This document shows positions 14,223-37,865 of a DNA stretch of 59,552 nucleotides, in pieces. Source of the stretch: Deltaproteobacteria bacterium. Its GTDB lineage: Bacteria; Desulfobacterota; Syntrophobacteria; Syntrophobacterales; Syntrophobacteraceae. Each line of letters begins with the position of its first letter. The stretch's first letter is position 1. Location of the stretch: positions 1 to 59,552 of the forward strand of contig JAJYTC010000005.1 in the NCBI GenBank assembly GCA_021793275.1, in the 5' to 3' direction. Under the pieces are notes generated by a model. It was not told the origin of the DNA. It worked only from the letters and a program-made list of their open reading frames with translations, and ran no database searches. A program made the translations under genes and the position numbers.

Positions 14223-14939
14223 TCACCCCCCTGCATGAACAAGCAGGATAGACAGATAATCGGCTTCCATCCGCTCCTGCCGGAGTTTACGAAGGTCGGT
14301 CGCGACCTGCTGGCCATCCAGCCCGGCACGCGACACGTACACCGCGCGGTCCAGAAAACCGGCCTTTTCAATGAGGTCAAGCACAGCGGCAAGCCTCTTG
14401 CCCACTTTCATCAAAATCACCGTTCCTCCTCCGGCCAGCGCCTCCCCGACAGTATCGAGATTATCGGAAGCAGGCACTATCACAACCCGCTCCCTGCCCT
14501 CGCCTACCGGAAATTCGGCCATAGCGGCGGCCGCGCTGAATGCGGTGATTCCGGGAACGGTTATTGCCTCCACGCCGGGAAGCTGCTCGCGCAAAGACCT
14601 GACCAAGTATATGTAGGTTGAGTACAAAAAAGGGTCGCCAAGGGTTAGAAAACAGGCGTCTTCACCCGTGCCGAGTACTCCGGCGACGCTACGGGCCGCC
14701 TCCGTCCAGCGCAGGGACAGTTCCCCCCTGTCGTCGCTCATAGGAAACACCAGTTCGTGGACCTGGCAACCCGCTCCCAGGTACCGGCCAGCTATGGCAA
14801 GGGCGATGCTCCCATTCTCGCTTCGGGCCTTCGGAACGAAAACATGCCTGCAACGTTCGAGCACCCGTGCGCCCTTCACGGTCATAAGGTAGGGGTCGCC
14901 CGGGCCAACCCCTATTCCATAAAGGATGCCATATTTCAT
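14223..14939 (-). CDS. cbiL: precorrin-2 / cobalt-factor II C20-methyltransferase
   Basis: 238 residues of the tetrapyrrole methylase (SUMT) family: GIGVGPGDPYLMTVKGARVL at the N-terminus, FLTLGDPFLYSTYIYL, VPGITAFSAAAA and GGTVILMKVGKRL. The combination GDPFLYSTY and MKVGK points to CbiL/CobI, which methylates C20 of the early corrin intermediate. With cbiX just upstream and no oxygen-dependent genes, the cobalt-early (anaerobic) route is likely, so cbiL is preferred to cobI. An alternative ATG lies two codons earlier (14945). Other cbi genes are not in this window. Confidence 0.88.
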   Translation of the reverse strand: MKYGILYGIGVGPGDPYLMTVKGARVLERCRHVFVPKARSENGSIALAIAGRYLGAGCQVHELVFPMSDDRGELSLRWTEAARSVAGVLGTGEDACFLTLGDPFLYSTYIYLVRSLREQLPGVEAITVPGITAFSAAAAMAEFPVGEGRERVVIVPASDNLDTVGEALAGGGTVILMKVGKRLAAVLDLIEKAGFLDRAVYVSRAGLDGQQVATDLRKLRQERMEADYLSILLVHAGG

Positions 14940-15045
14940 GACCATTCATCCCCGCTCGGCATCAAAGCCTTGTCTATATATCCGATCGATATCCGATCGC
15001 TCTTGACGATGAGTTCTTCGGTAAGTAAAAAAACACACCGCTTAT

Positions 15046-15573
15046 TTATGTGCGGTATTTCGCCGCCTCGTCCGGAGGCATGGGAACAAATTCGCACTGT
15101 CCTTCCGGCACCGGGTACTTTTCCTTCGGCGGCAGGACCAGTTCCCTTACGTCACTTACGCCTCTTGTCTCTTCGATCCTGGCCCGCAACAGATCGACCA
15201 GGAGTTCGTCGAACCCGAAGCTCCGGCCCATTTGCACGCTGACGCCGGGAAACTTCCGAGCCTCTTCCTTGAGCATTTCCGGAATGTCGAGCAGCAGGTG
15301 AATGCCTGAATGCAAAAAATAGGGAACGACCAGCACCCTGGTTGCTCCCAGTTTTACACATTTTTCAAAAATTTCCGGAAAGTGAGGCCCAAGCCTTGAC
15401 ATAAAACATATCTCGACAAGCGGATAGCCGTATTTCTCGCGGAGACGCTCGGCCACCTTTTCCATATCCTTCCCCGCATCCGGCACCCGGCTGCCGTGGC
15501 CCAGAATTATTACAGCATCGAGCGGGCATGCAGCTTTACCTCTCACCTCAGAACTTTTCTCATCCCTGACCAT
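15046..15573 (-). CDS. cbiX: sirohydrochlorin cobaltochelatase (CbiX)
   Basis: 175 residues. It inserts cobalt into sirohydrochlorin at the start of the anaerobic corrin pathway. Typical CbiX/CbiK features are VIILGHGSRVPDAGKDM (metal-site His), VEICFMSRLGPHFPEIFEKCVKLGATRVLVVPYFLHSGIHLLLDIP-type organisation (second His in HSGIH) and a single-domain length above the 120-130 residues of archaeal CbiXS. The ATG at 15573 has GGAGG five bases upstream; the longer frame from 15735 would translate a terminator. An unusual C-terminal tail of about 50 residues (from residue 125) is charged and Pro-rich. It is followed by cbiL after 100 bases. Confidence 0.88.
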   Translation of the reverse strand: MVRDEKSSEVRGKAACPLDAVIILGHGSRVPDAGKDMEKVAERLREKYGYPLVEICFMSRLGPHFPEIFEKCVKLGATRVLVVPYFLHSGIHLLLDIPEMLKEEARKFPGVSVQMGRSFGFDELLVDLLRARIEETRGVSDVRELVLPPKEKYPVPEGQCEFVPMPPDEAAKYRT

Positions 15574-15631
15574 ACAATCCTCCGAACCCGGACCGCCATT
15601 TATCAAGCCATTCCGAAGAACACGGCCTGAC

Positions 15632-15665
15632 AAAAAAAACCCGGACCATGGTCTTCCGGCCCGGG
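15632..15665 (-). terminator. intrinsic terminator between trxB and cbiX
   Basis: On the minus strand CCCGGGCC, a 10-base loop and GGTCCGGG form an 8-bp stem (one G-U pair) followed directly by eight T residues. It separates the thioredoxin-like/selenoprotein operon upstream from cbiX-cbiL downstream. Confidence 0.85.
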
Positions 15666-15783
15666 AAACCGTCTTTACGAATCTTGGCCCAATTGGCTCC
15701 GTGATGTCAAGGGTATATCTCAACAGCTCGCACAAGCGCCCGCTCCGGCACTCTACGCAAGCTCATATCGAGGTCCGGCGGCT

Positions 15784-18107: not shown

Positions 18108-18419
18108 TCACTCGCAGGCCGGCAGCGCAAGCCCTTCGTCCATATTTAGCCTGAGCGGGGTCAAACAAAATCTGCAAAATCCCAGTTCCCCGCCATTCGC
18201 AACAAGCAAATGCCAGAGCTCTTTGTAGACGTTAAAATCCGCCGCCCTGAGCACTCCTTCCAAATCCGACGGCGGTTCCAACCGCCTTATGCGGTCCGTT
18301 TTCCCGCAATACGGGCACAGAACGCCGAACAGGGCCATTTCGGTCCTGGGCAGTTCGCATTCGATGATCAGCCGTTTTATTGCTTCTGTCGCTTGCCTGC
18401 CGTCCATATCGCGAGACAC
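18108..18419 (-). CDS. small zinc-ribbon-like protein of unknown function
   Basis: 103 residues from a GTG start with GGAGGG upstream (an ATG at 18407 is an alternative). Two Cys pairs, LCPYCGKTDRIRRL and GFCRFCLTPL, about 45 residues apart, suggest one treble-clef or zinc-ribbon site. The part between is helical. It lies 15 bases behind the SMC-like ATPase gene. I do not recognise the family. Confidence 0.65.
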   Translation of the reverse strand: MSRDMDGRQATEAIKRLIIECELPRTEMALFGVLCPYCGKTDRIRRLEPPSDLEGVLRAADFNVYKELWHLLVANGGELGFCRFCLTPLRLNMDEGLALPACE

Positions 18420-18434
18420 GATGCGACTCCCTCC

Positions 18435-19415
18435 TCAGCAGCATTTGTAGAGCCTGAGCAGTTTCTTATCCATGACAAAATAAAATTTCATGAATGACGA
18501 GCCGTCGGGCCGGCTCCGAACACCGTGAAGGGTGTTCGCCAACTCTATCGTGCTCCTCAAGTGCGTGATCATTATGAGCTGTTTTCGGACTGCGAGGCCT
18601 TTCAGCAGATCCTGCATGCGCTTGTGATTGACGTAGTCAAGGGCCGGTTCGACTTCATCGAGAAGATAAATGGGGCTTTGGAGCTGATCGAAAAGGGCCA
18701 GTTTTGCCGCCAGGGAAGTAACCGTGCGTTCTCCGCCGGATATGAGCTTCGACTTTCTAACTCCTTTGTCCGGAAAAGATATCTCTATCTCCAGCCCGTT
18801 GGTGTCATTATGAGGACAAAGGAAAAGCCGGCAATCTCCCTCGGGCAGCAAAGAATTGAAATATTTCCTGAACCCCCGGTCCCATTCTTCGACAAAAAAC
18901 CTCATGTCGATTCCGGCGCAACTGTCGCCTAAAAATGCTTGAACTTCCTCCCACCTTTTCGCCGGATCCAGGCGCAGCCAGTCATTTAGCTGCTCCTGGC
19001 GCACGAGCGTCTTCAGCGTATCGACCAGCCCGAGACCCTTGAGACGATCAAGATAGGCCGCTCGGCTCAAAACCTTTCCGTCTTCCACAAATGCGTCCTC
19101 TCCGGATCTGAATAAACGCCTCTCAAGACGGCGCCTCAAATCATCCTTGCCTGTCCCTTCGCTAAAAACGAGAGCAACGCTTACGTTTTCGGCCGGCGGA
19201 CGCTCCTTGCTTCCGCTGAAAAACAAATCGCCAGTCTCATAGCAGCGGAGCCGCTCCAAATCGTTTTCTCCGAACGCCCAGGTAATTGCGTCCAAGATGT
19301 TGGATTTGCCGACCCCGTTGTTCCCTATAACGACGCCAATGCCGGGGTTGAAATTCATTTCCGTTTCGGCGGCATAGGACCTGAATCCATCTATTAATAC
19401 CTGTTCGAGAAACAT
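18435..19415 (-). CDS. SMC-like ABC ATPase lacking a coiled coil
   Basis: 326 residues. The N-terminal half has MFLEQVLIDGFRSY and the Walker A GNNGVGKSNILDAITWAFGE, as in SMC/RecF/Rad50 heads. The C-terminal half has the signature SGGERTVTSLAAKLALF, the Walker B YLLDEVEPALD and the D/H-loop TH of IMITHLRST. In SMC proteins these halves are separated by hundreds of coiled-coil residues and a hinge; here only about 110 residues lie between them. It is therefore a bare head domain. The ATG at 19415 is chosen because homology starts there; it is five bases from the selenoprotein stop. Function is unknown; DNA repair is possible but the neighbours are redox and methyl-transfer genes. Confidence 0.75.
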   Translation of the reverse strand: MFLEQVLIDGFRSYAAETEMNFNPGIGVVIGNNGVGKSNILDAITWAFGENDLERLRCYETGDLFFSGSKERPPAENVSVALVFSEGTGKDDLRRRLERRLFRSGEDAFVEDGKVLSRAAYLDRLKGLGLVDTLKTLVRQEQLNDWLRLDPAKRWEEVQAFLGDSCAGIDMRFFVEEWDRGFRKYFNSLLPEGDCRLFLCPHNDTNGLEIEISFPDKGVRKSKLISGGERTVTSLAAKLALFDQLQSPIYLLDEVEPALDYVNHKRMQDLLKGLAVRKQLIMITHLRSTIELANTLHGVRSRPDGSSFMKFYFVMDKKLLRLYKCC

Positions 19416-19420
19416 CCGGT

Positions 19421-19711
19421 TCAACTCCGCTGGTTCGGCCTGTAACGATCCATGATCGCCTGGATCAATTCTTCCTGCGGCGGGATGATCGCCTCGAAAA
19501 CAAGCTCTTCGTTCAGGGCCACACTGGGCAGGGACTTGGCGCGCAACCGCTTGAAACGCTGGATGCCCTCGCGCGTGCGCAGATCCCATTCGTACACTTC
19601 GATAATTTCTTTAATATCGTTCGGCAACGCCTGTACCGATTCCGCCATGTAGACGCATGCAGCTCATTGGCGAAAATCGGTCAGCAGCACATCAACAATC
19701 ACTTTGTTCAC
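19421..19711 (-). CDS. thioredoxin-like selenoprotein (U-A-A-C active site)
   Basis: 96 residues if the in-frame TGA at 19664-19666 is read as selenocysteine (residue 16). A GTG at 19711 has AGGAGG seven bases upstream and opens VNKVIVDVLLTDFRQ, then TGA, then AACVYMAESVQALPNDIKEIIE. The paralogue at 21477-21872 reads DSVQCAACGYMMESIAALPDDVQEMIE in the same place, so TGA replaces the first active-site Cys exactly. The rest (SLPSVALNEELVFEAIIPPQEEL) aligns over its full length and carries the cis-Pro loop. An ATG at 19648 would start after the active site and is rejected. A possible short stem (CGTCT with AGGCG) follows the TGA but is not a clear SECIS. Likely a redox carrier working with trxB; substrate unknown. 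Confidence 0.85.
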
Positions 19712-19726
19712 AGATCGGCCTCCTGG

Positions 19727-20671
19727 TTAATTCTCTACTGGAGTAGACCTGAACTGCACAACGACCCCACCCTTTGTCCACTCGATGAGAGCGTACCGGT
19801 AAAATTCCCCCGACCTGAGCGACCCTACGTTTATCATGTCTACTTCGCCCAGCCGGACGTGCTTCCACTCGCCCGTCGTTCCAAAGAGGACAATGGAGGC
19901 GGAAAAGTGCTTAAGCATGGTTTCCATAGCCGGGAAAACCGACTCGTCGCGCAGATAGTCGCTAAGGTAGCAGACGGAAAGGATTTCAGAGGCGTAGGGC
20001 CCAAAATCGGAAAACCCGGGCAAATCCTGTATGAACCCTCCGTGAAACGCGACTCCATGGCGGTCTCCCAAATTAAACATTCGAATCAGCGGGGTGATGA
20101 GCAACCGATCCCGGTTCGCCTGCTTTACGGAAACTTCCGCCCCGTGATCCCCGAACCGGCCAAGCGCTATCATGCGGTCAATCGGTCCCTGGACAACCCT
20201 TATCCCCTTCTTTACAGCAAGTTCCACTGCGGCGTCGTCTGCACCGTCGCCTCCGCCCCGAGTTAGATTGCCAAGACTGTAAAGGGCCTGCGCTCCTTCG
20301 GCTTTGGAAAGCGCATAGACCCTTTCGATGCCTTCGCTGTCCCCCATAGCCTCCGAAATGACAGCCAGCTTCAGCAGCTCGCCAGCCTCTTCGATTCCTG
20401 TCGTTATTGGATCGGCCTCGGCTATCTCACCGTTCTGCGCCATAAGAAGGGCTTTGCCTAGCTGATCCGGGCATGAAGTGCCGTTGCGGCATACAATCCC
20501 GCGAAGAAAAGGAAGAGCTTTATCCACATCCATGCCCTCGAGCAACCCGGCTATCAGTTGACTGTTACCGATGCAGCCTCCCCCCACCATGCGCACATCC
20601 TTTATGGCATTGTTCTCCAGTGCAAAATGGATCTCGGCCGGGCAGACGCCTTGAGGCTTGAATACATACAT
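19727..20671 (-). CDS. TSCPD domain fused to a decayed calcineurin-like phosphoesterase
   Basis: 314 residues. Residues 1-85 form a TSCPD domain (PQGVCPAEIHFALENN, GGGCIGNSQLIAGLLEGM, CRNGTSCPDQLGKAL). From about residue 95 the sequence follows the YfcE/MJ0936-type phosphoesterase fold, but every metal site is changed: ISEAMGDSEGI for DIHGN, SLGNLTRGG for GDLVGYG, VQGPIDR for GNHD, FGTTGE for FGHTH; only FHGG and INVGS recall the original. It is probably catalytically dead and serves as a binding scaffold (inference). The ATG at 20671 overlaps the stop of a 23-codon ORF as TGATG. The longer frame uses a TTG at 20737 and is less likely. Confidence 0.7.
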   Translation of the reverse strand: MYVFKPQGVCPAEIHFALENNAIKDVRMVGGGCIGNSQLIAGLLEGMDVDKALPFLRGIVCRNGTSCPDQLGKALLMAQNGEIAEADPITTGIEEAGELLKLAVISEAMGDSEGIERVYALSKAEGAQALYSLGNLTRGGGDGADDAAVELAVKKGIRVVQGPIDRMIALGRFGDHGAEVSVKQANRDRLLITPLIRMFNLGDRHGVAFHGGFIQDLPGFSDFGPYASEILSVCYLSDYLRDESVFPAMETMLKHFSASIVLFGTTGEWKHVRLGEVDMINVGSLRSGEFYRYALIEWTKGGVVVQFRSTPVEN

Positions 20672-20742
20672 CAGGCACAGTTCCCGATTCGGGCGGACTC
20701 GAAGGTCCTGCCGCAACAGCCCGAGCAGCGCGGGCAATTCAT
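20671..20742 (-). CDS. 23-residue Cys-rich microprotein candidate
   Basis: The frame MNCPRCSGCCGR...GNCA has five cysteines in 23 residues, including CPRCSGCC, which looks like a small metal-binding knuckle. Its ATG overlaps the preceding stop as ATGA, and its own TGA overlaps the next ATG as TGATG, so it is coupled at both ends. GGAGG lies 11 bases upstream. It could be a real peptide or simply a translational-coupling relay; no homologue is known to me. Confidence 0.45.
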   Translation of the reverse strand: MNCPRCSGCCGRTFESARIGNCA

Positions 20743-21896: not shown

Positions 21897-22931
21897 CTAC
21901 CAGGAATCCGGATATTTGGCATAATACTCTTCGAACCACGCCTTCGCCTCGTACGCCTGATCCATATGTTCCACCGGAACATCGTAGGGCATGTCTCAGC
22001 CAGGTGCGAAGCAGTACCCGGTCGTACCGCCGGCTGCAAGGCTCACAATAGCGTCCTCCCTGGGGGAAAGCAGTCCCAAAGAAAGAGCCAGTGTCAGTTT
22101 CAGGTTTCCCCCGAATCCCACCTTATGCTTAATGGCGATATCGCGAACGAAGTTGAGGTTCAACTGTTCGTCGATGGCAAATCCATGGGTCCCGACCTGC
22201 GCAACCGACTCCAGGACCTTGGTGGCGTCTCCGCAGATAAAAAATGAGGAGGTCAATCCGGCGTCATTGATAACCTTGATGGCGTCCTGGCAATAGGGAT
22301 GCACGAACTCTTTGAAAGTTGCATCCTTTATCTGCGAGGCGACCGGGTCAACTATTGCAATTATATCCGCGCCCATCTCGGCATAGAGCTGTGCGGCCCT
22401 GGCGCCGACCTGCCCCGCGAACTTCAAAACATCGTGGGCCTTTTCCTTGTTTTTGTACACATCGGTGAAAATTCGAACCCCCGCCAGATGCGATGCGAGC
22501 GTCAACGGACCGCAAAAAAGGCCCATCAGGGCACAGTCCATCTGTTCGAGTTGAGGCTTGGCAAGTCTGGCTGCCTCAAACAGAATGGGCCAGCGCCCGC
22601 TTTCCTTGGTCGGCAGTTTAAGTCCCGCCTCCGCCACGCTCTTGTCGGACAGCGGATGGTTGGTCACCGAAGGCACGTTATCGGGCCACCATTTCAAGTC
22701 GCAACCAACCGAATTGGCTTCCACCGACAGGTCGAAAACCAGTGGAATTCCATCCGCATGATACCTCTTGGCGGCAAAAGTGACTCCCTTGGCAAGCAAC
22801 TCAGGGTCCTTGAGCATTTTGTCAGCCGGCTCTCCAATGAGAAAAGCGCAGTGAACTCCTGCGTACGGAACCCACGGTGGGGATGGAGTCTTCTTGCCGC
22901 GGATTGCGTCAATGAGCAACTGTTTTGCCAT
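21897..22931 (-). CDS. UroD/MtaA-family methyltransferase selenoprotein
   Basis: 344 residues if the TGA at 21996-21998 is read as selenocysteine (residue 312). The frame before it is a corrinoid methyltransferase of the UroD/MtaA/MtbA family (ALMGLFCGPLTLASHL, GADIIAIVDPVASQI, FFICGDATKVLESV, GFGGNLKLTLAL). It reaches TGYCFAPG and then TGA, where relatives have PGCD, the Cys being the last zinc ligand. Reading on gives DMPYDVPVEHMDQAYEAK to a TAG at 21897, a normal family C-terminus. The other family member here (33796-34881) has WPGCDLWPD at the same place. A perfect hairpin follows the TGA. The usual H-x-C ligand pair is F-I-C. It probably moves a methyl group between a corrinoid and a thiol or selenol; partners unknown. 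Confidence 0.88.
21966..21982 (-). promoter_or_regulatory. putative bacterial SECIS hairpin
   Basis: On the minus strand ATGTTCC-GGT-GGAACAT forms a perfect 7-bp stem with a GGU loop. It begins 13 bases after the TGA, so the loop is about 20 bases downstream, the position and loop composition expected for SelB-binding SECIS elements such as that of E. coli fdhF (GGU in the loop). Confidence 0.75.
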
Positions 22932-27920: not shown

Positions 27921-29060
27921 TCAGCTTTCCCTTGTCAGATAAGGCGGATTCGGATAGGCCGGGCTGAAGCATTGGAGGTCAATGAATTCCGTTGCAACGC
28001 CTGCTTCCGCGGCCGTTCCGGCTACCGCCGCACGGACCAGGGATTCCAGCTCTGGAGGCTCCATCTGCACCCGGGCATTAACAAGCAGCGTCGCACTGAG
28101 TGCATCGCCCAAATGGCGGTCACTAAAAGAAGGTTCGCTGTTCAGTTGTACCAGATTACCCCAGATCGACCGGCCCTGGGTTGTCGCGGCTAATTTGACG
28201 TGGCCTATGGCGGCGTTAAGAGCGCGAAAACCGTCTCTTAAGCGCAGGATAACTTTTTCCAATATATCCATGGGGTTGAAGGCCCGATCTCCTGTGATCT
28301 TTACCGCCGCATTCAGCCAGCCCAGCACGGCTTCGGCGTGAGCATAGCGATCATAGTCGATCTGGGCTAGAACCGTTCCAGCCCCCGGCCGGCCCGTAAT
28401 CAACTGCTCGACCCATGTCTCCAGGCCCTCTCCTTTCAGGGCAGATAGAGGCAAAACCTGTTTGGAAGGGAAGCGCTCGCGCAACAACCCCGCAATACGG
28501 TTTGATTCTTTGATACCCAACCGGTCGATCTTGTTAAGAACTATCAGGTCGGCCTCTTCGAGCTGCTTACTGAAAAGGTAGGCGACATCTTCCGGAAAAG
28601 TGGTCGAGGTTTCTCCGAACAGAAGTTCGCGAACTCTGTCGGGGTCAACCATTGTGGAAAACGGCGCAAAGACAAATTGATCCCGATAATTGATTTTAAC
28701 AGGGTTTGCCACTGAAGCAACGAAGTCCGTGCAACTGCCAACCGGTTCCCCCAGAAGAATATCCGGCTCATGGGCGAGGACCTTCTCCACATGATCGATC
28801 AGTTCGTCGAACTTGCAGCAGAAGCAGCCGCCGACAACTTCTTCCACCGGTACATCCAGTTTTTCAAGCATCTGGCGAACGACGAGCGTGTCGGTAAGGT
28901 TGCCGCTTTGATCGTTGGTTATTATTCCGACTTTCTTGCCTCGCCTGATGAGCAGTCTGGCCATCGCTCCCAGGGCCGTCGTTTTCCCTGAGCCCAGAAA
29001 GCCGCCTGCGAATATCAGTCTGACCGGTTTCTTTACGGTAAGCAGTCTAGGTTTATTCAT
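27921..29060 (-). CDS. CobW/G3E-family GTPase
   Basis: 379 residues. P-loop GGFLGSGKTTALGAMA, metal motif GGCFCCKFDEL (CxCC), VLNKIDRLGIKESN and a long C-terminal part. The motif between P-loop and CxCC reads IITNDQSGNLTDT rather than NEFG, as in a subgroup of G3E GTPases found near corrinoid proteins. The gene overlaps the end of padR by four bases (ATGA), so the two are coupled, and is followed by a CxxC mini-thioredoxin. A role in loading a metal or cofactor of corrinoid enzymes is inference from family and neighbours. Confidence 0.85.
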   Translation of the reverse strand: MNKPRLLTVKKPVRLIFAGGFLGSGKTTALGAMARLLIRRGKKVGIITNDQSGNLTDTLVVRQMLEKLDVPVEEVVGGCFCCKFDELIDHVEKVLAHEPDILLGEPVGSCTDFVASVANPVKINYRDQFVFAPFSTMVDPDRVRELLFGETSTTFPEDVAYLFSKQLEEADLIVLNKIDRLGIKESNRIAGLLRERFPSKQVLPLSALKGEGLETWVEQLITGRPGAGTVLAQIDYDRYAHAEAVLGWLNAAVKITGDRAFNPMDILEKVILRLRDGFRALNAAIGHVKLAATTQGRSIWGNLVQLNSEPSFSDRHLGDALSATLLVNARVQMEPPELESLVRAAVAGTAAEAGVATEFIDLQCFSPAYPNPPYLTRES

Positions 29061-29722: not shown

Positions 29723-30670
29723 GTGGTGGATAATCGAGCATTGAAAGCATTACGCTGTTTTTTCGCGCTGATGTGCGCAGCATTGACGGCTGTGTGGCCG
29801 ATTGCGTCTTACGCCTCGATGGCGGCGACGGGGCGAGTGGTTTGCGATGAGGCGGGACGGCGTGTGCTTGTGCCCGATACCCCCCGAAGAATTATTGCGC
29901 TGGCCCCCAGCATTACCGAGATGATCTATTCGCTCGGCCGCGAGGATCGACTGGTCGGAGTCGCTCAGCAGAGCGACTATCCCGCTGCCGCGAAATCACT
30001 GCCAACTGTCGGAACATTCGTTCGCCCCGACATCGAAAAAATTGTGGCGCTCCGGCCCGACCTGTGTATCGCTACGACTGAGGGCAATCCGCCGTACGCT
30101 ATAAGCAGGATTCAATCTCTGGGCATACCGGTTTACGTCACCCGGCCCGTGGACCTCAACGGAATAATGAGGTCCTTGCTCGATATTGGCGACCTGCTCG
30201 GAGTCAAACGAAAGGCAAAGGCCGTGGTAGGGTGCATGCAAGCCAGGATCGATCATGTGAAAGACCTTGTTGCCATGGCCAGGTCCCGTCCGAGAGTATT
30301 CTTCGAACTGGGCTTCGCACCTCTTGTATCTGCGGGGAAAAACTCATTCGACGGGCAATTGATAACCTATGCGGGCGGGGTGGATATATCGAGGGGGCCT
30401 GAACCTTATCCCCGAATCTCCATGGAGCAGGTACTGGCCGGCAAGCCTGACGTCATCATCATAGCTTCGATGGCCAAACGCGGGAATCCCGAACAGGTGA
30501 AGTCCGAATGGGACCGCTGGACGAGCCTGCCTGCCGTCAGGGACAGGCGTGTTTATGTCGTGGACCCGAACTTGTTCGATCAGCCTTCGGTCCGGCTGGT
30601 CGACGCCCTCGAACTGCTGGCCCGGCTGATTCATCCCGAATTGTTTGAAAAACCCCATTCTAGGACTTGA
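29723..30670 (+). CDS. btuF: periplasmic cobalamin-binding protein of ABC importer (BtuF-like)
   Basis: 315 residues. A signal peptide (LRCFFALMCAALTAVWPIASYASMA) precedes a class III substrate-binding protein: RRIIALAPSITEMIYSLGREDRLVGV, VGTFVRPDIEKIVALRPDL, a rigid backbone helix, and ISMEQVLAGKPDVIIIAS. This is the BtuF/FepB fold; SITEMIYSLG and the operon with BtuC and BtuD types plus the corrinoid setting favour cobalamin over iron chelates. The GTG at 29723 is taken as start but has no clear ribosome-binding site; a TTG at 29738 is an alternative. Four bases overlap with the permease gene. Confidence 0.8.
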   Translation: MVDNRALKALRCFFALMCAALTAVWPIASYASMAATGRVVCDEAGRRVLVPDTPRRIIALAPSITEMIYSLGREDRLVGVAQQSDYPAAAKSLPTVGTFVRPDIEKIVALRPDLCIATTEGNPPYAISRIQSLGIPVYVTRPVDLNGIMRSLLDIGDLLGVKRKAKAVVGCMQARIDHVKDLVAMARSRPRVFFELGFAPLVSAGKNSFDGQLITYAGGVDISRGPEPYPRISMEQVLAGKPDVIIIASMAKRGNPEQVKSEWDRWTSLPAVRDRRVYVVDPNLFDQPSVRLVDALELLARLIHPELFEKPHSRT

Positions 30671-31680
30671 CCGTCTTGCAATCAGCCCCGCTCCTGAAAC
30701 GCATTATTTTTGTTTCCGCTCCACTGGCGCTTGTACTGCTCCTTGCCGCCGTCACAGGGCTGTTTGTAGGAACGACCGATCAGAGTATTGCCAAAGTGCT
30801 TTCGGCCATTATTTCAAGAGGCTGTTCAAACTCCACTGTTTCAGAGATAGTATGGAGCATCCGTTTGCCTAGAGTGGTTCTCGCCATGCTCGCGGGTGCA
30901 GCGCTTTCGCTGGGCGGCCTGGTTTTCCAGGCCCTGCTGAGGAACCCTCTAGCCGAACCATATATTCTGGGTATATCAGGCGGATCGGCTGTGGGGGCAT
31001 TATCAGGCATTCTGCTTGGCTTTTCGCAACTCTGGGGGCTGGCGTTTTTCTCCTTTGGCGGAAGCCTGGCCGCCCTCCTGCTGATCCTTGCGATCGCATC
31101 GGGCGGAATGATCTTGAGGAAAGATTCCCTTATACTGGCCGGAGTTATGGTAAACGCATTCTGCGGCGCGATAATCATTTTCCTCATATCCCTGAGCAGT
31201 AATACGCAAGTGTTCAATATTCTCTTCTGGCTGATGGGGGACCTGTCGATGGCTTCCACAACCCAGGTCATTATCCTTGCAGCCCTGCTGATCCCCTGCT
31301 CGATCGTCATCTATTCGTTTGCAAAACCCATGAACCTGCTCATGATGGGTGAGGAACTGGCGGGCAATATGGGTCTGAACGTGCGCACGACCTCTCTTAT
31401 ACTGCTGTTGGTGACCTCTCTGATGGTGAGCGCCACTGTTTGCTGTACCGGCTTATTGGGCTTCGTCGGTCTCGTCATGCCCCATCTGCTTCGCCTCCTG
31501 CTCGGTCCGGACCACAGGGTCTTGGTGCCTGCCTGCATTTTAGGAGGCGGCACCTATCTTGTTCTCTGTGACATGATGGCAAGGGTCCTTCCTCCGCACG
31601 GGGAAATGCCCGCAGGCGTCATTACCGCCATGATAGGCGCTCCGCTGTTCATTTCCCTTTTATGGAGATCGAAACGATGA
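30667..31680 (+). CDS. btuC: FecCD/BtuC-type permease of cobalamin importer
   Basis: 337 residues, about ten membrane segments. Family blocks include WSIRLPRVVLAMLAGAALSLGGLVFQALLRNPLAEPYILGISGGS-type order and GLVMPHLLRLLLGPDHR with the coupling helix near the C-terminus (PAGVITAMIGAPLFISLL). The start is uncertain: a TTG at 30667 overlaps the btuF stop, and a second TTG at 30676 is better spaced from AGGA (30662-30665). Cobalamin as substrate is inferred from neighbours; iron-siderophore transport cannot be excluded from sequence. Confidence 0.85.
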   Translation: MTVLQSAPLLKRIIFVSAPLALVLLLAAVTGLFVGTTDQSIAKVLSAIISRGCSNSTVSEIVWSIRLPRVVLAMLAGAALSLGGLVFQALLRNPLAEPYILGISGGSAVGALSGILLGFSQLWGLAFFSFGGSLAALLLILAIASGGMILRKDSLILAGVMVNAFCGAIIIFLISLSSNTQVFNILFWLMGDLSMASTTQVIILAALLIPCSIVIYSFAKPMNLLMMGEELAGNMGLNVRTTSLILLLVTSLMVSATVCCTGLLGFVGLVMPHLLRLLLGPDHRVLVPACILGGGTYLVLCDMMARVLPPHGEMPAGVITAMIGAPLFISLLWRSKR

Positions 31681-32486
31681 GGCAGGCGGTCGCCGTGCAC
31701 GACCTGAGCATATCATACGGGAAGCGGCCCATACTCCGGGACGTCGCGTTTTCGGTCGCCGAGGGGGAGTATTTCGTTATCATCGGCCCCAACGGCTCCG
31801 GTAAGACCACGCTAGTCAAGGTTATCTCAGGTTCCTTGAAACCGCAAACCGGTCGCGTCGAGATCGTGGGCCGGTCCATCGAGGCGATCGCACGGAGGGA
31901 ATTGGCGAGGGCTGTTGCCTTGGTGCCTCAGCATGCGCCCGTGGACGTCCCCTTTACCACGGCGGAAGTCGTGCTCATGGGGCGGTCTCCGCATCTTGGA
32001 CTGCTCTCGATCGAAAGCCGCGAAGACATGGAAATTGTCGAACAGTCCATGCGCTTCACAAATGTAGAACATCTTGCGCGCTCCAGGCTGGACCAGTTGA
32101 GCGCCGGCGAGCGCCAGAGGGTCCTTATTGCCAGGGCCGTCTGCCAGCGGGCCGGCACGATCGTTCTCGACGAACCGACGGCTTCGCTGGACATCGCCCA
32201 TCAAATGCACATCATGGACCTTATGGAGAAGCTAAGAAGGGAACAGGGCGTGACGGTAATCATGGTTTCCCACGACCTGAACCTGGCGGCGATGTATGCG
32301 AACCGCATACTGTTGCTCAACCATGGCAAAGTCGCGCGAATCGGGACTGCGGACGAAGTGTTCCAGCCGGGTGTGATCGAGCCCGCATACGGCTGCAGTC
32401 TGCTTATCGACCGAAACCCTCTCAGGGAGGTCCCAAGACTTACTCCCGTACCAGGAGAATTCACCGGGTCGGGCCCTGTCAAATAG
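31677..32486 (+). CDS. btuD: ATPase of cobalamin ABC importer
   Basis: 269 residues. Walker A GPNGSGKTTLVKVI, signature LSAGERQRVLIARAV, Walker B TIVLDEPTASLDIAHQ and H-loop MVSHDLN. The Q-loop reads VPQHAP. The ATG at 31677 overlaps the permease stop as ATGA and has GGAG nine bases upstream; the frame also opens at 31662. The C-terminal 30 residues after the ATPase fold (NPLREVPRLTPVPGEF) resemble those of other BtuD/FecE-type subunits with an added tail. Confidence 0.88.
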   Translation: MRQAVAVHDLSISYGKRPILRDVAFSVAEGEYFVIIGPNGSGKTTLVKVISGSLKPQTGRVEIVGRSIEAIARRELARAVALVPQHAPVDVPFTTAEVVLMGRSPHLGLLSIESREDMEIVEQSMRFTNVEHLARSRLDQLSAGERQRVLIARAVCQRAGTIVLDEPTASLDIAHQMHIMDLMEKLRREQGVTVIMVSHDLNLAAMYANRILLLNHGKVARIGTADEVFQPGVIEPAYGCSLLIDRNPLREVPRLTPVPGEFTGSGPVK

Positions 32487-32799: not shown

Positions 32800-33753
32800 A
32801 TGTTTCCTTTCGAATTCAAAAATGAACCGAAAGTCTGTGAAATCGGAGGAGTAAAATTCGGAGGACAGCCCGGTGACTACCCGTGCGTTTGCGTCTCCTC
32901 TATCTTCCAGAAGGGCGACAAAGTGTTCGAGGGTAAGCGCAAAGAGGGCTTCAATGAACAGCGTGCGGCGGAGCTGCTCAAAACGCAGGACAAACTCTGG
33001 GCTGAAACAGGTGTGCCCGGAATGGCGGACATTGTCGCCAACACCGGCCAGGAGTTCAAAACCTATATCGATTTTGTCACATCCGTGACCAATATGCCCT
33101 TTTGCGTTGATGCATGGGTGATGAAGCCCAAGCTTGAAGGCGCCGCTTATTGCGCCGAAAAGGGTCTTCTCGACCGTATGTTTTACAACAGCCTTACCGT
33201 TTGGGAACAGGATCTGGAAACCGAAATCCGCGAGATTTCCCAGATAGGCGTAAAGCACGTCCTGCTCGTCTCTTTCGACCAGAGCGACCAGATGCCGACC
33301 GGACGCATAACCGGCACACAGAAGATATTGGACATCATCGACAGGGTTGGGGCCAGGTTCAAGAGTATTTTCGTTGATACATCCGTCATGAACGGCCCGG
33401 CTACAGCTCTTTGCGGAGTAGCCAACCAACTGGTCAAGGAAAAGTGGGGCTTTCCGGTTGCCAGCGCCCCCAGCAATGGCTCCTACATGTGGAAAAAGGC
33501 TCGAGAACTTTGGGGCTTCAAGGGCTGGGCGGCTGCGGACGCAGCCCTTGAAGCCCTGTCCGCATTCTATTATCACGACATGATCTTCTCCGGGCCTATG
33601 GCCGGGGCTGAACGCATCATGCCGGCAGTGGCCATGGCTGAAGCGTTCAAAGCAACCGCACGTTTCGCGGAGAGCAAAAAACTTCCCAAAGATTCCAGTC
33701 ACCCTCTGTTCAAGCTTTTTCCGGAATTCACCGAACAGTTGCAGACCCTTTAA
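32800..33753 (+). CDS. MtrH-family corrinoid:pterin methyltransferase
   Basis: 317 residues. MFPFEFKNEPKVCEIGGVKFGGQPGDYP and SIFQKGDKVFEGKRKEGFNEQRAAELL match the start of MtrH, the methanogen subunit that moves methyl between tetrahydromethanopterin and a corrinoid; TGVPGMADIVANTGQEFKTYIDFV and MNGPATALCGVANQLVKEKWGFPV continue the TIM barrel. In bacteria such proteins (MtvA/MtgA types) use tetrahydrofolate. The ATG at 32800 has AGGAGG eight bases upstream. Followed by a UroD-family methyltransferase and a corrinoid protein, it should be the pterin-side enzyme of a three-component methyl-transfer system. Substrate side unknown. Confidence 0.85.
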   Translation: MFPFEFKNEPKVCEIGGVKFGGQPGDYPCVCVSSIFQKGDKVFEGKRKEGFNEQRAAELLKTQDKLWAETGVPGMADIVANTGQEFKTYIDFVTSVTNMPFCVDAWVMKPKLEGAAYCAEKGLLDRMFYNSLTVWEQDLETEIREISQIGVKHVLLVSFDQSDQMPTGRITGTQKILDIIDRVGARFKSIFVDTSVMNGPATALCGVANQLVKEKWGFPVASAPSNGSYMWKKARELWGFKGWAAADAALEALSAFYYHDMIFSGPMAGAERIMPAVAMAEAFKATARFAESKKLPKDSSHPLFKLFPEFTEQLQTL

Positions 33754-33795: not shown

Positions 33796-34881
33796 ATGGC
33801 CGAGATGAGTGGTTACGAACGAGTAATGCGTACATTCGGGCGCGAACCCGTGGATACGATGCCTTTTTTCAGCGGCATGGGAATGGTGCTTCAACCGGCG
33901 ATCAAGAAGCTGGGCTACAAGTTTCCCCAGGTGCATACCAGTGCGGAGAAGCTCGCCCGCTCGGGTATCGAGTCGGCGCGCATGTTCAATCTGGATTCTG
34001 TCGTAATCCCCTACGACATGTGTTGGGAATCGGAAGCCCTTGGCAACAAAATCAGCCTCTATGAGGATTCCGAAGATATCCTCTATCCCACGATACCCAA
34101 CAAGAACTGGACCGAACTGGACCAGGTGAACATCACCGACAACGATATCGAGACCATAATGTCGCGGGGACGGATGCAACTGATCCCCGAAGCCATAAAG
34201 ATCGTAAAGAAAGAAGCTCCCGAAAAAGCCCTTGGGGCATGGCAACTCGGCCCCTTCACGCAGATGGGACAAACCATCGAACTCGACAAGGTCCTTAAGG
34301 CCGTATTCAAGCAGAAAGCTAAAGTCGAGGCCATATTGGACAGATTTACGGAAATGATCATCGAGATAGGCAAATCCCTTCAGGCAGCCGGAGCGGATTT
34401 CATAACGCTGCGGGAACCGGGAGTCGCCGCCGACCTTATCAGCCCTAAAACCTTCAAGGAAATCATTAAACCTCGCCTGACCCGCATCCTTGATGCATGG
34501 AAATCTCCAAAGGTGCTTCACATTTGCGGATCGACCGACTCCTTGATAGAAATGATGCACGACTGCGGGGCCGACGCCCTCAGCGTCGATATAAAGAACA
34601 ATTTGATCGAGTCGAGAAAAAAGCTCGGGGACAATGTTCTTCTCTTCGGAAACTTCGATGTTTTCGCTCTTCCGTGTAAAGCCGAGACCACGGTGGAACA
34701 AGCCGTAGCCGGAATGAAGACCAACATTGACGGGGGAGTCGACGCTGTTTGGCCAGGCTGCGATCTTTGGCCCGACATCAAGGAGGAGAATTTCAGAGCC
34801 ATGGAGCAGACGGTAAGAGAATACGGCAGGAAAGCCAGCCCTGCCCTGGGACGTACCGACGGTGGAAGTCTTAAAAAGTAA
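33796..34881 (+). CDS. UroD/MtaA-family corrinoid methyltransferase
   Basis: 361 residues. MSGYERVMRTFGREPVDTMPFFSGMG is a typical MtaA/UroD-family start. Zinc-ligand candidates are His and Cys in VLHICGSTDSL and Cys in VWPGCDLWPD, the H-x-C...C pattern of MtaA/MtbA. The ATG at 33796 has AAAGGAG eight bases upstream. It sits between MtrH and the corrinoid protein and most likely transfers methyl from an unidentified donor to the corrinoid, or from it to a thiol. Comparison with the selenoprotein at 21897-22931 shows the Cys that is replaced there. Confidence 0.85.
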   Translation: MAEMSGYERVMRTFGREPVDTMPFFSGMGMVLQPAIKKLGYKFPQVHTSAEKLARSGIESARMFNLDSVVIPYDMCWESEALGNKISLYEDSEDILYPTIPNKNWTELDQVNITDNDIETIMSRGRMQLIPEAIKIVKKEAPEKALGAWQLGPFTQMGQTIELDKVLKAVFKQKAKVEAILDRFTEMIIEIGKSLQAAGADFITLREPGVAADLISPKTFKEIIKPRLTRILDAWKSPKVLHICGSTDSLIEMMHDCGADALSVDIKNNLIESRKKLGDNVLLFGNFDVFALPCKAETTVEQAVAGMKTNIDGGVDAVWPGCDLWPDIKEENFRAMEQTVREYGRKASPALGRTDGGSLKK

Positions 34882-34892
34882 GGAGAATTCAA

Positions 34893-35567
34893 ATGAAGAA
34901 AAAAGAGGATCTGTTGAAGGAACTCAAAGACACCGTTATCAACTACGATGAAGACGGGTGCAAAGCTGCAGCACAGGAATATGCGGATGTAAACTACCCC
35001 GCTCTTGAGGGGATAATGGACGGATTGGCCGCCGGAATGCAGGTGGTTGGCGAACTCTATGAAAAAAACGAGTACTTCGTCCCTGAGGTGCTGATGTGCG
35101 CGGATGCTCTTTATGCGGGACTGGCGATTCTAAGGCCCCTTGTCCCGAAAGCCGGTAGAGGTCCCAAGTCCCAGGTGGTCATCGGCAGTATACAGGGAGA
35201 CGTTCACGACATCGGAAAGAACCTGGTCAAAATGATGTTCGACGTCGCCGGCTGGGAAGTCTACGATCTGGGTAGAGATGTTCCTCTTGAAGACTTTGTC
35301 AAGGAACAGATGCGCACCGATTCGGAAGTCGTTGCCATGTCTGCAATGATGACCACCACCATGCTGGGCATGAAAAAGGTCATCAAGATGATCAAGGAGA
35401 AGAACCCCAACGTCATGATCATGCTGGGCGGGGCGCCCGTTACAAAGGATGTGGCCAAGCTCTTCGGGGCGGACGGCTACGCCGAGTCGGCCGGAAATGC
35501 CGTGCAGGAAGGCATACGCATGATCGGCAGACTTCGCGAGTTTGAAGCCTCCAAGGCTGCCTCCTAG
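34893..35567 (+). CDS. corrinoid protein (MtaC/MtbC/MttC type)
   Basis: 224 residues. A helical cap (residues 1-90, EYFVPEVLMCADALYAGL) is followed by a B12-binding domain with the His-on motif GDVHDIGKNLVKMMFDVAGWEVYDLGRDVP, then SAMMTTTMLGMKKV and MLGGAPVTKDVAKLFGADGYAE. It carries the methyl group between the two methyltransferases encoded just upstream. AAGGAG lies in front of the start, which is 11 bases from the previous stop. A short C-terminal tail follows the fold. Confidence 0.93.
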   Translation: MKKKEDLLKELKDTVINYDEDGCKAAAQEYADVNYPALEGIMDGLAAGMQVVGELYEKNEYFVPEVLMCADALYAGLAILRPLVPKAGRGPKSQVVIGSIQGDVHDIGKNLVKMMFDVAGWEVYDLGRDVPLEDFVKEQMRTDSEVVAMSAMMTTTMLGMKKVIKMIKEKNPNVMIMLGGAPVTKDVAKLFGADGYAESAGNAVQEGIRMIGRLREFEASKAAS

Positions 35568-35768: not shown

Positions 35769-37865
35769 ATGAGTGACGACAAAGTGATGGTGATCTTTCA
35801 ACCCTCCGGGAGAAGGGGCTTCGTTCCGAAGGGAATTAACCTCATAGAAGCATCTCGCCTGCTCGGCGTGGACATCGAAGCTCTGTGCGGGGAAAAGAAG
35901 GTTTGCGGCAAATGTGTCGTCCGCATCGAGGAGGGGCATTTCGAAAAGTACAACATTACTTCGGCCCAGTCGCATGTGAGCAGATGGCAGCAGGAGGAAG
36001 AGGGCAAGTTCATCAATGAGGCGCGAAAAAAACAGGGCTATCGCCTGGCCTGCGTCTCCAAGCTCCACGGGGACGTGTTGGTGTTCGTTCCGGAAGAATC
36101 CAGGGCGGGAAAGCAGATTGTAAGCAAGGCGGCGAGAGATATCCATATCGAACACGATCCTGCTGTGAGAACATATTTCGTAACGGTGGATAAACCGACA
36201 TTCCAGGACCCGACCGGCGACTTCGAACGGGTCTGCTCGGCCCTGGAGAAAGAGTACGGAATCAAGGGACTAACCGCCGACATATTTTCGTTGCGCTCCC
36301 TGCCGGTCGCTCTGCGCGACGGTGACTGGTCTGTAACTGTAAGCGTTTGGAATGATAAAGAGATCATTAGATTCAGGCCGGGAAGAAAAGAAGGTTCCTA
36401 CGGGGTGGCCATAGATATCGGCACTACCACGGTGGCCGGCTACTTATGTGATCTTCGAACTATGGAGGTCATCGACACCATTTCCCTTATGAACCCGCAG
36501 TGCAAGTACGGCGAAGACGTGATGGCCCGCATCACTTTTCACATGACAACCGAAAACGGTCTCACCAGGATGAGCGACGACATCGTCGAGGGGCTCAACT
36601 GGCTGATCGACCAGGCCGTTAAGAATACTCATCCGCCCAGGAAAAAAGTCAAACAGCCCAAGGATTATGATGGACCCGAGGAGTTCGTAGAGGCCCCCGA
36701 GAAGGGCAAGACTTATCTACGGCTAAGCAGGGATGATATCGAGGATATTACGATCGGCTGCAATACAGCCATGCATCATATTCTGCTTCAGCTAAATCCC
36801 GAGTTTGTGGGTCTGGCGCCTTTTCCCCCGGTGCTTCACCACAGCCTCGATATCAAAGCGCGCGACCTCGGGATTCATATCAACCCTTCCTCCTATATCT
36901 TTGTGCTTCCAATCGAAGCCGGGTTCGTCGGCGCCGACAACGTCGGCGTGCTGATCGCCGAACAGCCTTACAAATCCCTCGAAAACCAGCTCATAATAGA
37001 CATCGGAACCAACGGAGAGCTGGTGTTGGGTAACAAGTTCAAGATGATTTCTTCCTCTTGCGCCACCGGACCGGCGCTCGAGGGAGCGCAGATCGCCTTT
37101 GGCATGCGCGCTGCTCCCGGCGCCATCGAGCGCATAAAGATAGACCCCGAAACCCATGAAGTCGACTACAAGGTGATCGGACGCGACGCATGGCGGAGTT
37201 TTTCGCAAACCAAAGATATGAAGGCCAAGGGGATTTGCGGATCGGGAATTCTCGATGTTCTGGCGGAGCTGTTCGCCAGCGGCGTTGTCTCGAAAAGCGG
37301 CGTTTTTGCCAAGGGCCTTACAACGAAAAGATTCCGCAGAAATCCTGACAATAATCAGCCGGAATTCGTTCTCGCGTGGGCTGAAGAGACCAGTATCGAC
37401 AAGGATATCGTCATCACGCAGAAAGACATCAGGCAGATTCAACTCGCAAAAGGGGCGCTTTACGCCGGATGCAAGTTGATGATGCGCAGAATGGGCCTCG
37501 AAAAGGTTGACAAGGTCAAGATTGCCGGGGCCTTCGGGACCCACGTAGATCGCACGAAGGCATTGATAATGGGATTGTTTCCCGATTGCGAAGTTGACAA
37601 GATCGAAAGCGTCGGCAATGCGGCGGGAGACGGTTGCCGTGCGGCTCTGCTCAACCGCAGGAAAAGGAATGAAGCCGACTGGTGCGCCAGGAATGTCGAA
37701 TATATCGAGCTTACCGTGGAAAAGGATTTCCAGCAACAGTTCATGGAGGCCATGCAGTTGCCGCATATGACTGATGAGTTCCCTCATCTTGAAGGAATCG
37801 TTCGAGACGAGATACTTCATCAGCAGGGTATGGGAGCAAAGGTGGCCAACGCCAGGGGCGTATAA
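35769..37865 (+). CDS. RACE-type reductive activator of corrinoid proteins (2Fe-2S + ASKHA)
   Basis: 698 residues. The N-terminal ferredoxin-like domain binds a 2Fe-2S cluster through CGEKKVCGKC and a later Cys (RLACVSK); a linker domain follows, and from about residue 210 an actin-like ATPase (ASKHA/DUF4445) domain: GVAIDIGTTTVAGYL, IDIGTNGELVLGN, GAFGTHVD. Such proteins use ATP and an electron to bring inactive cob(II)alamin back to cob(I)alamin. RBS AGAGGAG. The gene is 201 bases behind the corrinoid protein and surely serves it. An insert rich in Lys/Pro (about residues 285-315) lies in the ASKHA domain. Confidence 0.92.
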   Translation: MSDDKVMVIFQPSGRRGFVPKGINLIEASRLLGVDIEALCGEKKVCGKCVVRIEEGHFEKYNITSAQSHVSRWQQEEEGKFINEARKKQGYRLACVSKLHGDVLVFVPEESRAGKQIVSKAARDIHIEHDPAVRTYFVTVDKPTFQDPTGDFERVCSALEKEYGIKGLTADIFSLRSLPVALRDGDWSVTVSVWNDKEIIRFRPGRKEGSYGVAIDIGTTTVAGYLCDLRTMEVIDTISLMNPQCKYGEDVMARITFHMTTENGLTRMSDDIVEGLNWLIDQAVKNTHPPRKKVKQPKDYDGPEEFVEAPEKGKTYLRLSRDDIEDITIGCNTAMHHILLQLNPEFVGLAPFPPVLHHSLDIKARDLGIHINPSSYIFVLPIEAGFVGADNVGVLIAEQPYKSLENQLIIDIGTNGELVLGNKFKMISSSCATGPALEGAQIAFGMRAAPGAIERIKIDPETHEVDYKVIGRDAWRSFSQTKDMKAKGICGSGILDVLAELFASGVVSKSGVFAKGLTTKRFRRNPDNNQPEFVLAWAEETSIDKDIVITQKDIRQIQLAKGALYAGCKLMMRRMGLEKVDKVKIAGAFGTHVDRTKALIMGLFPDCEVDKIESVGNAAGDGCRAALLNRRKRNEADWCARNVEYIELTVEKDFQQQFMEAMQLPHMTDEFPHLEGIVRDEILHQQGMGAKVANARGV

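Follow-up and report, generated by a model that had tools for sequence, protein, structure and literature searches.

An apparent selenoprotein family in the UroD/MtaA superfamily, with an altered active site and a thioredoxin-like partner

The corrinoid methyltransferases MtaA, MtbA and CmuA share a TIM-barrel fold and a set of three zinc ligands, His-Cys-Cys. Across the superfamily, the S-methyltransferases use His-Cys-Cys, whereas in the O-methyltransferases one or both Cys are replaced (Kountz and Balskus, PMC10418091). The MtaA-like proteins (Mlps) of the type 1 MGCs of anaerobes are also corrinoid methyltransferases of the URO-D superfamily and are found beside a corrinoid protein and an activase; they keep His-Cys-Cys with few exceptions among Mlps1, and selenocysteine (Sec) is not reported in Mlps in that paper (PMC10418091). 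Another related system is the mec cassette for dichloromethane, in which URO-D paralogues occur with a corrinoid protein and MTII; neither a thioredoxin-like partner nor Sec has been reported for it. On the selenoprotein side, a 2026 inventory of 119 prokaryotic families and subfamilies has no UroD/MtaA member (PMC13188914), and a search by terms did not find one in a 2022 review or in the GOS survey. Here we describe a gene, called Sec-UroD below, that resembles MtaA over its whole length and has an in-frame TGA at the position of the last zinc ligand. It lies in a contig stretch of 59,552 nucleotides, referred to as the window. The central features are the following.

22931-21897, minus strand: Sec-containing URO-D/MtaA-like protein of 344 amino acids, with Cys233 and Sec312 at active-site positions
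21998-21996, minus strand: in-frame TGA read as selenocysteine, residue 312 (Cys in the relatives L085, L119 and L144)
21982-21966, minus strand: SECIS-like hairpin ATGTTCC-GGT-GGAACAT, 13 nt past the TGA

The initial annotation had pointed to a methyltransferase frame that meets a TGA where relatives have the Cys of PGC(D), and all the features that it described are present; it had not given the strand, which is minus. The frame starts at 22931 and ends with a TAG at 21899-21897, and when TGA is translated as U there is a single U, at residue 312, in the context FAPG-U-DMPYDVP. A plus-strand reading of 21897-22931 was rejected, as its translation contains no family-like protein. The match to the Pfam URO-D family (PF01208) is strong (E 2.3e-50, 172 bits, gathering score 23.9). 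Among the 15 URO-D matches in the source genome, only this gene has a stop inside it. The local paralogue with WPGCDLWPD was found as described (33766/33796-34881, plus strand), as was the hairpin with its 7 base pairs, GGT loop and 13-nt distance from the TGA. The frame stays open for 32 residues past the TGA, again as had been claimed, and these residues are conserved like the rest of the protein.

Conservation of the codon was followed by aligning homologues across the TGA, a check that had been proposed together with a search for the sel genes. A scan of genome contigs gave 75 relative loci, of which 74 reach the TGA site. In 73 of these 74 relatives, all from other genomes, TGA stands at exactly the same codon; the remaining one (L085) has TGC. 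Cys codons at the site are also found in L119 (TGT) and L144 (TGC), and Cys occurs in the wider family. In the Desulfobacterota sample, eight of nine close genes (not counting the window's own) have one TGA, and the ninth, L119, has none; in the class of genome G161, one TGA is found in 30 of 31 full-length genes, the exception being L144. The TGA form is also present in five Bacillota genomes of a sample of 398. It should be kept in mind that these counts come from separate draws that overlap, with some genomes shared with the first scan. A chance TGA, a frame error or an error of a single assembly is ruled out by this recurrence in dozens of genomes. On the tree, two changes between Sec and Cys are needed for L085 and L119, and L085 is nested beside the Sec form L118. 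Amino acid identity to the window gene is nearly the same before the TGA (76.8%) and after it (75.8%), while the fraction of identical codons rises from 32% to 51%. Such an excess of codon identity is as expected of an RNA element within the coding sequence.

Coding constraint falls far short of explaining how well the hairpin is kept. A complete stem of 7 pairs is formed in 52 of 71 distinct sequences, compared to 1.8 ± 1.3 expected and a maximum of 8 in 2000 synonymous shuffles, which used each gene's own codons. Since the sequences are related, these counts overstate independence. For the Val in the stem, 73 of 75 sequences use GTT, a codon that accounts for 26% of Val codons gene-wide. Compensated stems are seen in L083 (GCTCC/GGAGC), in L086 and L097 (GTGTTCC/GGAACAC) and in L091 (ACGTTCC/GGAACGT). 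As to the Cys genes, the fold is lost in L085 (z +1.5), the stem sequence is lost too in L144, and L119 has kept part of the stem. Covariation at one fixed register is modest and only slightly above that of the shuffles, and RNAalifold returned no consensus structure for 31 sequences. The RNAalifold result is probably due to a clade whose pairing register is shifted, for which reason the synonymous-codon shuffles were relied on instead; in the Bacillota-type clade the register of the hairpin is shifted and its signal is weaker (z -0.95).

The sel-gene search found selA, selC (tRNA-Sec) and selD in the source genome, and selD itself has an in-frame TGA for Sec. In the case of selB, only the 3' part is in the assembly: the C-terminal wing domain of SelB, by which the true gene was located, lies at the start of contig C90. 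The remainder was not found in the source genome assembly and has probably been lost at the contig edge. The best TIGR00475 matches in the genome (L024, L025 and L027) were considered as pieces of selB but read as EF-Tu. SelA was present in all 16 tested genomes that carry a Sec-UroD gene, Cys carriers included. Selenocysteine insertion, as first proposed, is thus supported by TGA/Cys exchange, by conservation downstream, by a SECIS-like hairpin and by the sel genes. There is strong support for the decoding of UGA 312 as selenocysteine by SelA/B/C/D, aided by the hairpin just downstream, though there are no mass-spectrometry or selenium data.

The AlphaFold model of Sec-UroD (pLDDT 94, pTM 0.93) meets the first of the two features shared by MtaA, MtbA and CmuA, the TIM-barrel fold, as far as a predicted model can. 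The best structural match is MtaA of Methanosarcina mazei (Foldseek E 1.5e-21), and the comparison with MtaA structure 4ay8 gives Z 41.5 and an rmsd of 1.8 over 324 residues at 25% identity; uroporphyrinogen decarboxylases score clearly lower (Z about 35). The zinc ligands do not follow. When the sequence is aligned with 4ay7, Sec312 takes the place of the last Cys (APGC) and Cys233 that of the Cys of HICG, i.e. the third and second ligand positions of MtaA, but Phe231 falls on the His, so that His-Cys-Cys has become Phe231-Cys233-Sec312. Cys233 is invariant across the family, and the His of the HxC motif is absent throughout, being nearly always Phe (Leu in L085 and L118). Distant Cys relatives also lack it (FFVCG...LAPGCDMPY), so the loss of His appears older than Sec. 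The initial annotation had placed Sec at the last zinc ligand; the placement holds in so far as Sec aligns with the last Cys of MtaA, but with Phe in place of the HxC His this is not a plain Cys-to-Sec swap in an otherwise normal site, the ligand-swap picture needs amending, and a metal site is not assured. Judged by its residues, Phe-Cys-Sec fits neither the S- nor the O-methyltransferase pattern, and binding of a metal by Sec312 is inferred, not shown. The protein stays far below the curated cut-offs of the known models: TIGR01463 gives 133.5 bits (cut-off 235.4), MtaA 104.2 (400) and MtbA 91.9 (600). Its NCBIfam matches are only to general MtaA/CmuA and HemE models, all below cut-offs, and NCBIfam (June 2026) has no specific model for it.

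A further difference from MtaA is a thioredoxin-like partner, listed here with other genes of the same strand.

21872-21477, minus strand: thioredoxin-like partner with an invariant QCAAC, directly downstream of Sec-UroD and fused to it in distant relatives
21471-21043, minus strand: second HUIPC-related protein, with CPAS replacing CxxC
21056-20739, minus strand: HUIPC-family thioredoxin-like protein in CIPC form (NF047660, above cut-off)
19711-19421, minus strand: paralogue of the CAAC partner with UAAC, in-frame TGA at 19666-19664
18060-17806, minus strand: ArsE/MTH895-type small thioredoxin
17802-16786, minus strand: CobW-family GTPase of metallochaperone type, a neighbour in 59 of 74 loci
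16737-15784, minus strand: thioredoxin-reductase-like protein

Of the 73 loci for which enough sequence is available, 68 have the gene for the CAAC partner directly downstream and on the same strand. The predicted model of the partner is thioredoxin-like; Foldseek and VIA list mostly thioredoxins for it, at weak scores. The closest described family is the HUIPC motif thioredoxin-like (seleno)protein NF047660, of which the partner is a distant relative (31 bits, cut-off 105) with its own QCAAC motif and a C-terminal extension; a true HUIPC member sits in the same window cluster. In five distant relatives of Sec-UroD (L120, L121, L145, L148 and L149) the URO-D domain and this same thioredoxin-like domain are fused into proteins of about 450 residues, URO-D first and then the thioredoxin-like part with CAAC or CPPC. 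These fused relatives have 35-42% identity, and a CobW GTPase gene adjoins most of them. The fusion is the strongest functional link between the URO-D protein and the thioredoxin-like domain. As a separate matter, the CAAC-partner paralogue with the in-frame TGA is likely a second selenoprotein, and U-forms of such paralogues (UAAC, UTAC, UTPC, ULAC, UIPC) recur in related loci. A CobW-related selenoprotein is also known (NF041053), and the Sec-UroD neighbourhood likewise has a CobW-family GTPase, but the one in the window is without Sec, and its score of 62 stays below the cut-off of 180.

Like MtaA, Sec-UroD has corrinoid genes in its surroundings.

23475-23134, minus strand: DUF6951 protein, conserved upstream neighbour
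32800-33753, plus strand: MtrH/MtgA-like methylcorrinoid:pterin methyltransferase, which adjoins Sec-UroD in other genomes
33796-34881, plus strand: paralogous MtaA-like protein UroD_b, canonical HICG...PGCD (WPGCDLWPD)
34893-35567, plus strand: corrinoid protein of MtbC/MtgC type
35769-37865, plus strand: corrinoid-protein reductive activase of RACo/AcsV type

Of the 35 long loci, 30 have at least one corrinoid methyl-transfer gene nearby. The arrangement seen most often in Desulfobacterota runs MtrH, UroD_b, corrinoid protein, activase, DUF6951, DUF2284 and then Sec-UroD, which is followed by the CAAC thioredoxin, the ArsE-type thioredoxin, CobW and the thioredoxin reductase. In the window the first four of these are separated from the rest and lie at 32.8-37.9 kb, on the plus strand. 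A second type of locus (L083, L094, L095 and others) combines a corrinoid protein with two further proteins, one of the MtmB family and lacking an in-frame TAG, the other of the MttB family. Full open MtmB-family frames without TAG (non-pyrrolysine MtmB) were seen beside Sec-UroD at L083:3144-4526, L124:9276-10655 and similar places.

Taken together, the best reading is a Sec-dependent, corrinoid-linked and probably thiol-directed methyltransferase that is served by its own thioredoxin. The fuller version, in which a protein of MtaA fold holds a metal with Cys233 and Sec312 and works with the thioredoxin-like partner, we regard as reasonably probable in the absence of any biochemical data. From fold and neighbourhood, Sec-UroD would act in a corrinoid methyl-transfer pathway together with the corrinoid protein, the activase and either MtrH/UroD_b or an MtmB/MttB-type methyltransferase, the methyl group passing to or from a thiol or selenol; no enzyme assay supports this step. 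Cys233 and Sec312 would most likely still hold a metal, probably zinc, which may be delivered with the help of the adjacent CobW GTPase. In methylcorrinoid:thiol transfer, the selenolate could improve the thiol or selenol bound there as a nucleophile or leaving group. Because the two are fused in relatives, the CAAC partner may be expected to dock on the Cys/Sec site, where it could keep an easily oxidised pair reduced or present the thiol. Some clusters contain MtrH and others MtmB, which points to the Sec protein as a component common to them and not as the substrate-defining enzyme. MtrH is a usual acceptor-side enzyme, and as it is often also present, it is not clear which step the Sec protein would carry out. 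In addition, no coenzyme M pathway has been shown for Sec-UroD, which is another difference from MtaA.

Two other readings of the site take the missing His at face value. In one, no metal is bound without it, and Cys233 and Sec312 form a selenenylsulfide or thiol-selenol pair, which performs a redox or reductive step and is turned over by the CAAC partner and the nearby thioredoxin-reductase-like protein. The Phe in nearly the whole family, the adjacent or fused thioredoxin-like partner, the nearby thioredoxin reductase and ArsE-type thioredoxin, and the view (PMC13188914) that the majority of known selenoproteins have redox functions all agree with this. However, the spacing of Cys and Sec and the fold match the metal-ligand positions of MtaA, a metallochaperone-type CobW GTPase is found in the 59 loci mentioned and beside the fused relatives, and the neighbours are methyl-transfer genes, which leaves a purely redox role possible but unlikely. 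In the other, the classical zinc site is lost as well, and the Cys233/Sec312 pair itself reacts and is regenerated by the thioredoxin-like domain, with a transient Se-methyl-selenocysteine or a selenenylsulfide that would form at each turnover. This too can only be held as a tentative, minority option; if it were true, the selenium-dependent chemistry of this corrinoid-linked methyltransferase would have no described precedent. Much less support exists for an organometal or metalloid substrate, where Cys233, Sec312 and the following Asp313 would bind methylated As, Se, Hg or similar and pass the methyl group to the corrinoid protein. The site does have two soft ligands, and the neighbours include an ArsE-type thioredoxin and DUF2284, which is also found in arsenite-methyltransferase and metal-binding selenoproteins, but resistance genes for arsenic, mercury or selenium are not consistently next to Sec-UroD and the canonical paralogue UroD_b (P0003) has the Asp too, so we consider this improbable. 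The view that the TGA, a normal stop codon in this genetic code, truly ends the protein at 311 residues, short of the last loop and helix, can draw on the only partly assembled SelB of the source genome, but it has next to no chance in the face of a TGA kept at this codon by 73 of 74 relatives, equal conservation past it, Cys in other relatives, a hairpin under nucleotide selection and the sel genes.

We therefore return to the preferred reading of a Sec-dependent, corrinoid-linked methyltransferase. Within a superfamily that is already known, this appears to be an unreported selenoprotein family whose active site is altered, although it is possible that it has been mentioned elsewhere in the literature. 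Known prokaryotic selenoproteins are mostly redox proteins, whereas here Sec occupies the place of a zinc ligand in a superfamily of corrinoid methyltransferases; Sec, the loss of His and the thioredoxin domain fused in relatives suggest an altered methyl-transfer chemistry. Standard gene calling would end Sec-UroD 33 codons early. Many sulfate-reducing bacteria carry Sec-UroD: it is found in about one in ten genomes of the sampled Desulfobacterota class and in several Bacillota sulfate reducers. Cultured carriers are Desulfofundulus australicus, Desulfatitalea alkaliphila, Desulfospira joergensenii and Desulfocicer vacuolatum, the Delta 1 symbiont of Olavius has two copies (L039 and L086), and plasmid records hold one distant relative only. 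In the broader family TGA occurs at the same site in L149:4717-6072 (42% identity, fused) and in L141:2924-1968 (39%, unfused), so Sec and Cys have probably been exchanged more than once there. The natural Sec and Cys forms allow a direct comparison of their chemistry.

It is worth noting that two genomes with the Sec form also have a second copy at 54-57% identity (L142:4335-3316 and L143:10563-11582), in which PGCN and SFLTCG/IFLTCG replace PGUD and FFICG; these are Cys paralogues with the site further altered. Several other genes around Sec-UroD recur in the related loci. A short SMC/RecF-like ATPase (18435-19589, minus strand) and a small CPYCGK protein (18108-18419, minus strand) are conserved neighbours, and a protein with a TSCPD domain near its N-terminus (19727-20737, minus strand) is conserved in nine of 74 loci. 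A second, distinct CobW-like GTPase at 27921-29060 (minus strand) is also found in 12 loci of the neighbourhood set. Finally, genes for cobalamin biosynthesis (CbiX-like and precorrin methyltransferase-like) and a BtuF/C/D-like ABC transporter, assigned only by eye from their translations, flank the cluster at 14223-15735 (minus strand) and 29723-32486 (plus strand).
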